Source of the DNA: Acidobacteriota bacterium
GTDB lineage: Bacteria > Acidobacteriota > Terriglobia > Terriglobales > Acidobacteriaceae
Assembly: GCA_003225615.1 (NCBI GenBank)
Contig: QIAS01000187.1
Coordinates: forward strand, 444-11,498
Length of the DNA stretch: 11,055 nt
Reading direction: 5' to 3'
Both the position numbers and the translations under genes were made by a program. A model generated the notes under the pieces. It worked only from the letters and a program-made list of their open reading frames with translations, was not told where the DNA came from and ran no database searches. This document shows positions 4,737-5,888 of this stretch, in pieces (position 1 is the stretch's first letter; every line of letters starts with the position of its first letter).

Positions 4737-5888
4737 GTGCGCAAGCAATGGGACAATCCGAATGTGGCGCGGGCATTCCTGCCCGCGAATGTTGCCGGCG
4801 TTCCGTCCTCGCTGAGAATCGGCAGCGTCGAGATCCGTCCCGCCACCGTTCTCGCCCCCATGGCCGGAGTAACCGACACCGTCTTCCGCCGCTTCATCCG
4901 CAATCTCGGAGGCTGCGGCCTTATCATGACCGAGTTCACCTCGGCCGACGGAATCCTCCGCGCCAAAGACAAGAAAGCTCGCCGCTACCTGCACTTCTAC
5001 GAAGACGAACACCCCATCTCCGCTCAACTCTTCGGCAGCAATCCCCAGGTGATGGCCGAAGCCGCCCGCATGGTCGAAGACTTAGGATTCGACCTGGTCG
5101 ATCTCAACCTCGGCTGCCCGGCGAAAAAAGTCGTTAAGTGCAACGGAGGCTCCGGCCTGCTTCGTGATCTCCCTGCCATCGGTAACATTTTTAAAGCCGT
5201 CCGAGCCGCCGTCAAAGTTCCCTTCACAGTAAAATTCCGTGCCGGATGGAACGACCAGGAAATCATCTGTGTCGAGCTAGCCAAAATGGCCGAAGATTGC
5301 GGCCTCTGCGCCGTAGCCCTGCACGCCCGCACCCGCGAGCAAGGCTATAGCGGAAACGCCCGCTGGGATTGGATTGGCGCGGTAAAGCAGGCGGTGAAAA
5401 TCCCCGTAATCGGCAACGGCGACATCCGCACGCCAGAGGATGCCTGCGCCATGGTGACCCAAACCGGCTGCGATGCAGTCATGATAGGCCGCACCGCCGC
5501 CTCGAACCCCTGGATCTTCCGCCAGATAGCTCAATACACAAGCAACGTCCGCGTAGAGACGGCCGCCTCGGACGTCCAGCCTTTCGAAAACGATCCAGCC
5601 AGTAGAGACGGTGCGAGCCCCGTCTCTACGAAAGAGTATGATGAGCCCACCACCGCCGACCGCTACCAAATGATTCGCACCTACTTCCAGATGCTGATCG
5701 AAGAAGAAATGCCCGGCGCCGCTGGCAAAATGAAGCAGTTCGCCTCCTGGTTCACCCACGGAGTCGCCGGAGGTGCCGCACTACGCAAGGCTATCTATGA
5801 AGCTAAAAGCGAGCGAGAGATTCTCGCCCGCGTAGAAGAATTCTTCGAAGCAATCCTGCAGCCCGAGCCCGTCTCCGCCCCTCAATGA
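4737..5888 (+). CDS. dusB: tRNA-dihydrouridine synthase, DusB type
   Basis: An FMN enzyme that reduces uridines in tRNA to dihydrouridine using NADPH. From GTG 4737 it has 383 residues against 321 for E. coli DusB. TIM-barrel landmarks: LAPMAGVTDTVF (39-50), QLFGSNP, NLGCPAKKV with catalytic Cys127, NGGSGLLRDLP, HARTREQGYSG (196-206), IPVIGNGDIRTPEDA and MIGRTAASNPWIF. The C-terminal helical RNA-binding domain follows (RYQMIRTYF to the end). Two things are odd. The first 25 residues contain ARAFLPANVAG, encoded by a palindromic repeat (4765-4787). Residues 269-303 sit between the barrel and the helical domain, are encoded by a double-hairpin repeat segment (5545-5629), and are about 27 residues longer than in E. 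coli. The frame is intact through both. Only GTG 4737 and GTG 4764 are usable starts before the conserved LRIGSVEI; neither has a strong ribosome site (GGGA at 4750-4753 precedes the second). Family assignment secure, start uncertain. Confidence 0.93.
   Translation: MRKQWDNPNVARAFLPANVAGVPSSLRIGSVEIRPATVLAPMAGVTDTVFRRFIRNLGGCGLIMTEFTSADGILRAKDKKARRYLHFYEDEHPISAQLFGSNPQVMAEAARMVEDLGFDLVDLNLGCPAKKVVKCNGGSGLLRDLPAIGNIFKAVRAAVKVPFTVKFRAGWNDQEIICVELAKMAEDCGLCAVALHARTREQGYSGNARWDWIGAVKQAVKIPVIGNGDIRTPEDACAMVTQTGCDAVMIGRTAASNPWIFRQIAQYTSNVRVETAASDVQPFENDPASRDGASPVSTKEYDEPTTADRYQMIRTYFQMLIEEEMPGAAGKMKQFASWFTHGVAGGAALRKAIYEAKSEREILARVEEFFEAILQPEPVSAPQ
4765..4787. repeat. Palindromic repeat family A, copy 1 (inside dusB N-terminus)
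   Basis: A 23-base unit: TGG followed by arms CGCGGGCA and TGCCCGCG, a perfect 8-bp stem with loop TTCC (the arms start at 4768). It matches 10671-10693 at 21 of 23 positions. In the dusB frame it encodes part of VARAFLPA. Confidence 0.8.
5545..5575. repeat. Inverted repeat inside dusB (first hairpin of insert)
   Basis: ACGTCCG (5545-5551) and CGGACGT (5569-5575) form a perfect 7-bp stem. The 17-base loop contains GTAGAGACGG (5553-5562), identical to the left arm of the second hairpin 49 bases downstream (5602-5611). Confidence 0.65.
5602..5629. repeat. Palindromic repeat family C inside dusB (second hairpin of insert)
   Basis: GTAGAGACGG (5602-5611) and CCGTCTCTAC (5620-5629) form a perfect 10-bp stem with an 8-base loop. 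It is read through in the dusB frame as SRDGASPVST. From memory, GTAGAGACG-type palindromes recur in many copies in some bacterial genomes; this needs checking. Confidence 0.85.

Follow-up and report, generated by a model that had tools for sequence, protein, structure and literature searches.

Palindromic repeats resembling REP elements lie in frame in a length-variable linker of DusB in a clade of Acidobacteriota

Intragenic GTAG REPs have been described before (Di Nocera et al., 2013; PMC3733652). As presented there, these are short palindromes with a GTAG foot that are mostly intergenic, occur as dimers and adjoin genes for REP-associated tyrosine transposases (RAYTs). Some lie in housekeeping genes, including those of tRNA enzymes; flexible linkers and loops are mentioned, and the recB REPs of X. 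campestris and X. oryzae sit at about the same site. Rickettsia palindromic elements (RPEs) are described as inserts of about 150 bp in Rickettsia which encode a conserved peptide, add residues in frame to the products of unrelated genes and are apparently tolerated (PMC10969869, PMC2996958, PMC3733652). REPINs and BIMEs, as described, likewise consist of REP hairpins, are often paired and are associated with RAYTs, and are presented as extragenic (PMC3116915, PMC2817692).

The repeats reported here share these features and depart from each description in some respect. Unlike the REPs presented in PMC3733652, they belong to Acidobacteriota, and a single orthologous linker, that of the tRNA-dihydrouridine synthase DusB, is long in 68 of the 117 distinct sequences examined; its elements differ, and it has as many as 116 additional residues. 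Unlike RPEs as described, the units measure about 25-180 bp and fall into several families, one of which (family A) has RAYT partners. In contrast to REPINs and BIMEs, described as extragenic, part of them lie in coding loops. The main text of PMC3733652 makes no mention of dihydrouridine, and the literature searched, with most subscription journals outside it, held no report of DusB insertions in Acidobacteria or of palindromic repeats in Sulfotelmatobacter. Intragenic REPs and RPEs are already known; what is new is that such repeats recur in dozens of species at a single orthologous site.

The window analysed is a stretch of 11,055 nucleotides from the genome of an Acidobacteriota bacterium (577 contigs, 4.03 Mb, 82.7% complete). 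Its upstream part (59-2953) holds adjacent genes for malate synthase and isocitrate lyase, recognized with Pfam. The dusB product scored 332 bits against the NCBIfam model TIGR00737 (cut-off 293), and the solved structure closest to it in sequence is that of E. coli DusB (6ei9). A first-pass annotation had described two perfect inverted repeats inside dusB, and both stems were recovered, with arms ACGTCCG/CGGACGT at 5545-5551/5569-5575 and GTAGAGACGG/CCGTCTCTAC at 5602-5611/5620-5629; the open reading frame crosses them with neither a stop nor a frameshift, as it had said. Its counts of 41 residues between FRQIAQY and RYQMIRTYF, and of about 14 in E. coli DusB (aligned via an orthologue with a short linker), were likewise reproduced. 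The surplus itself stood, at 28 codons rather than the 27 proposed, when the NPWIF..A linker was compared between the window (51 residues) and the commonest form among relatives (23). The features are listed in the table.

Table. Features of the window's dusB and the repeat families read from linkers of its relatives
Feature	Position	Strand	Basis
dusB, tRNA-dihydrouridine synthase B (383 aa, GTG start)	4737-5888	+	ORF, NCBIfam, Pfam
N-terminal leader palindrome of dusB, CGCGGGCA-TTCC-TGCCCGCG, read VARAFLPA	4768-4787	+	sequence
Extra linker segment, about 84 nt surplus with uncertain borders, from the end of the TIM barrel (..FRQIAQY) to YDEPT..ADRY	5544-5636	+	orthologue linkers
7-bp inverted repeat ACGTCCG/CGGACGT, overlapping the decayed hairpin	5545-5575	+	sequence
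Left outer end, 11/11 complementary to 5620-5630	5552-5562	+	inverted-repeat pair
Putative decayed GTAG-footed hairpin resembling family A, read VETAASDVQ (relatives: VGTAASGCPVE)	5553-5580	+	weak profile match at 5554-5580
GTAG-footed 28-bp palindrome GTAGAGACGGTGCGAGCCCCGTCTCTAC, read SRDGASPVS with flanking bases	5602-5629	+	inverted-repeat and pattern search
Right outer end, complementary to 5552-5562	5620-5630	+	inverted-repeat pair
Family A: GTAGGG-hairpin-GTCGAGCGAAGCTCGAC, with matching right end R			read from linker DNA
Family B: GGGAAGGGCACGACTTCAGTCGTGCC...GGCTTTAGCCGC...			read from linker DNA
Family C: TGTCATCCTGAGGAG...			read from linker DNA

The intact unit of the window is composed of GTAGAGACGG-TGCGAGCC-CCGTCTCTAC and agrees with the definition of a GTAG REP, a palindrome of 20-40 bp with a GTAG foot. 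The first repeat is probably better described by a decayed hairpin than by the 7-bp stem, which shares its right arm with that hairpin and is weak at 7 bp alone. This putative unit, GTAGAGACGGCCGCCTCGGACGTCC at 5553-5577, starts with GTAG at 5553, and its membership in family A is weakly suggested by a profile match of 9.0 bits (E 2.6e-4 with a single 168-base stretch searched). In the pooled profile search it fell short of the 1e-3 cut, which counts against a REP reading. RNA folding of 5543-5632 gave z = -2.1, with 7 of 200 shuffles as good, and the stem formed by the outer ends dominates the fold. In the AlphaFold model the insert is a coil (278-305) between helices at 259-277 and 306-322, with pLDDT below 50 at residues 280-297; the model is weak overall, with a mean pLDDT of 66.9 and part of the barrel below 50.

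A search for DusB orthologues was positive in 55 of the 61 near genomes (E ≤ 1e-60) and in 342 of the 398 genomes of the family (E ≤ 1e-100). Sampling nearest-first gave 196 loci, 119 of them distinct and 117 with a readable linker; the other genera of the family contributed a further 20. The NPWIF..A linker was 23-25 residues long in 42 of the 117 distinct sequences, 27-29 in seven and 31-139 in 68, and all 20 distant family members had 23 or 29 residues (19 parsed, one read by eye). When the linker was left out of the tree, a single supported branch comprising 88 rows took in 67 of the 68 sequences with long linkers. The named records of this clade belong to Ca. Sulfotelmatobacter (placed by NCBI in Terriglobales, Acidobacteriota), Acidobacteriaceae and other Terriglobia. 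The label changes between long and short at least 17 times on this quick tree, in which 53 of 114 inner branches are weak, and six of the changes are forced by well-supported branches. Equally long linkers of conserved, non-palindromic sequence in close orthologues would have spoken against an insertion; the close orthologues are indeed equally long, yet their linkers are unconserved, they hold differing sequences at this one spot, and 37 of the 68 carry a perfect inverted repeat.

In these 37 linkers the perfect inverted repeat measures 8 bp or longer; the expectation from dinucleotide shuffles was 1.9 of the 68 linkers, and such repeats were seen in 15 of 255 control stretches of the same length taken from dusB. 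The remaining 31 have no such repeat, which counts against a REP reading. Family A was the commonest family in the linkers. Profiles of A, R, B or C matched 40 of the 68 long linkers and none of the 49 short ones; the 28 long linkers that match none of the four again count against that reading, and we assume decay both in these and in the 31 without a perfect repeat. Copies of A, R and B are also present elsewhere in 0.8 Mb of relatives, and C occurred in one linker only, with none in that 0.8-Mb sample. A peptide search of eight genomes with part of one long linker matched only the dusB linkers of two of them (G325 and G353), with one further weak match containing a stop; DNA profiles worked better.

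We then examined the source genome, where the first-pass annotation had proposed that further copies be sought. BLASTN with a 121-base stretch gave 30 matches at E ≤ 10; apart from that to the window itself, they spanned only parts of the stretch, 14-47 bases long. The idea of a single 85-base element had to be given up: the segment is made of two units, and no second copy of the whole turned up. The 28-bp palindrome with exact arms occurs four times in the 4.03 Mb, including the window, and a reversed control pattern gave none, so the second palindrome (5602-5629) is beyond chance. The other three copies were judged from the ORF layout to be intergenic, between ORFs with a coding signature. 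A shorter close copy lies in frame in argS (C62:9501-9532), where it reads SRDGARPVS against SRDGASPVS in DusB. This ORF (L004:1-1833) is incomplete, running off the end of its stretch; it scored under the cut-off of the NCBIfam arginine--tRNA ligase models, and the Pfam catalytic and anticodon-binding domains passed. The rlmD gene of the same genome (L007:335-1801) also carries a palindromic element in frame. A looser form of the palindrome pattern was found at 31 places in 11 of 16 genomes, with the largest number, 11, in one genome (G100), against eight places for its reversed control, which equals or beats the real pattern in G146, G115 and G027. On these counts, the 28-bp unit is clearly present in some of the 16 genomes and does not stand out in others. 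An Rfam search of the window returned no family at the gathering score. At L354:1572-1606, beside an S9 peptidase gene and next to an apparent frame break, a repeat reads VHVETAASPVQP, compared with VRVETAASDVQP in the window.

The elements are not confined to DusB. Such confinement was favoured at first, when none of the 11 clusters seen across 400 kb of G146 was placed in a real gene, and was dropped after other genes were found. In 1.2 Mb of six relatives there were 78 element clusters, 27 of which were flagged by script as lying inside ORFs; after leaders and spurious ORFs had been removed by eye, 16 of the 27 were judged to be inside convincing genes, a count in which dusB is favoured because detection partly used dusB linkers as queries. 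These genes were folC, mnmE, valS (twice) and dusB in G115; dusB in each of G349 and G226; hydantoinase A (twice), agmatinase, RNase H, an OppD-like ATPase, clpB and dusB in G405; and mnmG and dusB in G241. None of the clusters of G146 was so judged. For the second hydantoinase site, agmatinase, RNase H and clpB, BLAST matches were the sole basis. In ClpB (L384:2464-5157), about 19 residues in the second AAA domain are related by BLAST to a dusB linker repeat. ValRS was found in 30 of 32 genomes and MnmE in all 32, and in 30 loci of each (L293-L322 and L323-L352, respectively) the loops are very variable in length. Profile A matched six times in valS ORFs and 11 times in mnmE ORFs, and some of these loops also hold R or B in frame, with much of the remaining loop sequence assigned to no family. 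In-frame insertion into unrelated protein genes, a feature of RPEs, is present here as well. An RlmI-like case passed with one query at E ≤ 1e-3 and was absent from the larger 1.2-Mb scan. The presence of dusB, mnmE, mnmG, valS, argS, rlmD and the RlmI-like gene in this set is suggestive of a bias to enzymes acting on tRNA or rRNA; elements also lie in clpB, folC and the genes for the OppD-like ATPase, hydantoinase, agmatinase and RNase H, which are not of this class.

The RAYT model NF047646 was over its cut-off in ten of ten genomes, the source genome among them, and in one of 14 control genomes; in the source genome it was over the cut-off at two places, one of which has an internal TGA. 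Family-A elements lie on both sides of a RAYT gene in three relatives (G115 C97, G349 C114 and G405 C1), the gene of G115 being over the cut-off of 80 with 88 bits, and B-like hairpins flank a RAYT gene on both sides in G405 (C6). Among the 38 stretches scanned, two of which are the same gene, 16 hold some element, not always near the gene. The stretches scanned around the source genome's own Y1/RAYT loci had neither family A, R or B nor the 28-bp palindrome, and in eight genomes the top-scoring Y1 locus lacked A, R and B. From this last result the repeats had seemed unconnected with RAYTs, an idea that was dropped because family A adjoins lower-scoring matches. The link of family A, and perhaps of B, with RAYTs is seen in relatives; for the source genome we infer it from the loci of the three relatives, because its own loci are without these repeats. 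A Y1 transposase gene of the source genome (L213, on C31) has GTAGGGAC/GTCCCTAC motifs, with GCCCAGCGCT palindromes on both sides.

The reading that we prefer, and hold to be very probable, is that REP elements mobilized by transposases settle in tolerant loops, turn over there and are lost again. GTAG-footed REP elements would enter the flexible linker by which the TIM barrel of DusB is joined to its helical domain, with RAYTs probably mobilizing them as single strands. Copies that keep the frame would be tolerated because the linker is disordered, their peptide presumably being neutral. After arrival, hairpins would be exchanged, nested and deleted, as a result of which the length and sequence of the linker vary by species, the core of the enzyme being conserved. 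The evidence thus favours what the first-pass annotation had proposed, a palindromic element carried in frame and tolerated as a linker peptide in the manner of RPEs, with mobility as the conjectural part. Insertion stands, and a lone event does not, since differing repeats are found at the same spot in many species and in other genes too. By the published descriptions of RPEs, the element in the window would work like one; this is a likeness and not a claim of membership. More widely, protein loops would have been settled by REP elements across the clade, the DusB linker being the best documented site here.

A different history of the same elements, and so a variant of the REP reading, has nearly an even chance of being right. 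One family-A insertion would have been inherited from the ancestor of the clade and later altered by drift in place, exchange of hairpins with copies elsewhere in the genome, nested insertions and deletions, with no repeated arrival at a hot spot. The frame of family A argues for it: on the coding strand it is the same in 28 of 29 matches in dusB linkers, though each of five frames out of the six is free of stops in 30 or more of the 31 copies from the sampled stretches, a few of these copies being inside genes. A left border, TGCGCGGGGATGGA, shared by some long linkers of genus g7 points the same way; it is retained in one linker of 23 residues, which suggests loss by deletion. However, families A, B and C occupy the spot in different species, and the many changes of state on the tree, which cannot separate gain from loss, also stand against a single event.

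Frame constancy reaches beyond DusB. When mnmE and valS are added to the dusB linkers, family A on the coding strand keeps a single frame in 34 of 36 matches, and on the other strand one frame accounts for 12 of 18. Family B on the coding strand has one frame in all 14 matches in dusB linkers and mnmE, and a different frame in both matches in the 5' region of dusB. It is conceivable, though in our estimate rather unlikely, that the REPs of this clade are coding-compatible parasites, with sequences selected for one harmless reading frame, which would let them persist and turn over within housekeeping genes, and the DusB linker as a standing reservoir. This is hinted at by the one-frame reading of families A and B, by the peptide SRDGA[SR]PVS shared by dusB and argS, and by family B in mnmG, which keeps the peptide REGHDFSRAD that it encodes elsewhere. 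The one-frame cases in dusB may have one common origin, so that their independent support is thin.

It is improbable that the hairpins owe their retention to an RNA-level function, for example in stability or translation of the dusB mRNA, with the peptide as a by-product. Such a role would fit the paired changes seen at three positions of the stem in a set of 24 distinct hairpins, although the hairpins were chosen for at least 7/9 pairs, which makes the pairing rate circular and only the variety of pairs informative; mobile REPs would give equal paired changes with no function in the host. The inserts appear to be under little protein-level constraint, because pN/pS was 0.63 in them and 0.05 in the core (three species pairs picked for alignable inserts), which fits the REP reading and would also suit an RNA role. 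Against it, the long linker is missing from 49 of the 117 orthologues, the hairpins vary in their arms, loops, number and family, and the fold of the window reaches only the modest z given above. Less probable still is ordinary drift of a disordered linker with chance palindromes. The linkers are unconserved and the repeat profiles fail to match 28 of the 68 long ones, as drift would have it, but the excess of inverted repeats over the shuffles, the lack of any profile match in short linkers and the copies elsewhere in the genomes all argue against it. Least probable is an artefact of metagenome assembly: the named records are almost all MAGs and the linker is interrupted in two of the 119 distinct loci (L018, which has NN at that point, and L099, whose assembly is 6% contaminated and also holds an intact dusB), but the architecture recurs in assemblies of many projects and 68 of the 70 long or broken linkers are in frame.

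The more than 100 orthologues with and without inserts form a natural series in which to study how proteins are lengthened by mobile DNA, whether the added peptide is neutral and how REPs are exchanged. They also carry a warning that variation in DusB linker length in this clade would largely reflect repeat invasion and no functional domain, and parts of MnmE and ValRS may be of the same origin. The linker is not the only variable site in DusB: the N-terminal leader is a second one among the orthologues, and ValRS of the source genome (L317) holds SVARAFLPAKAG, which matches the peptide encoded by the leader palindrome.
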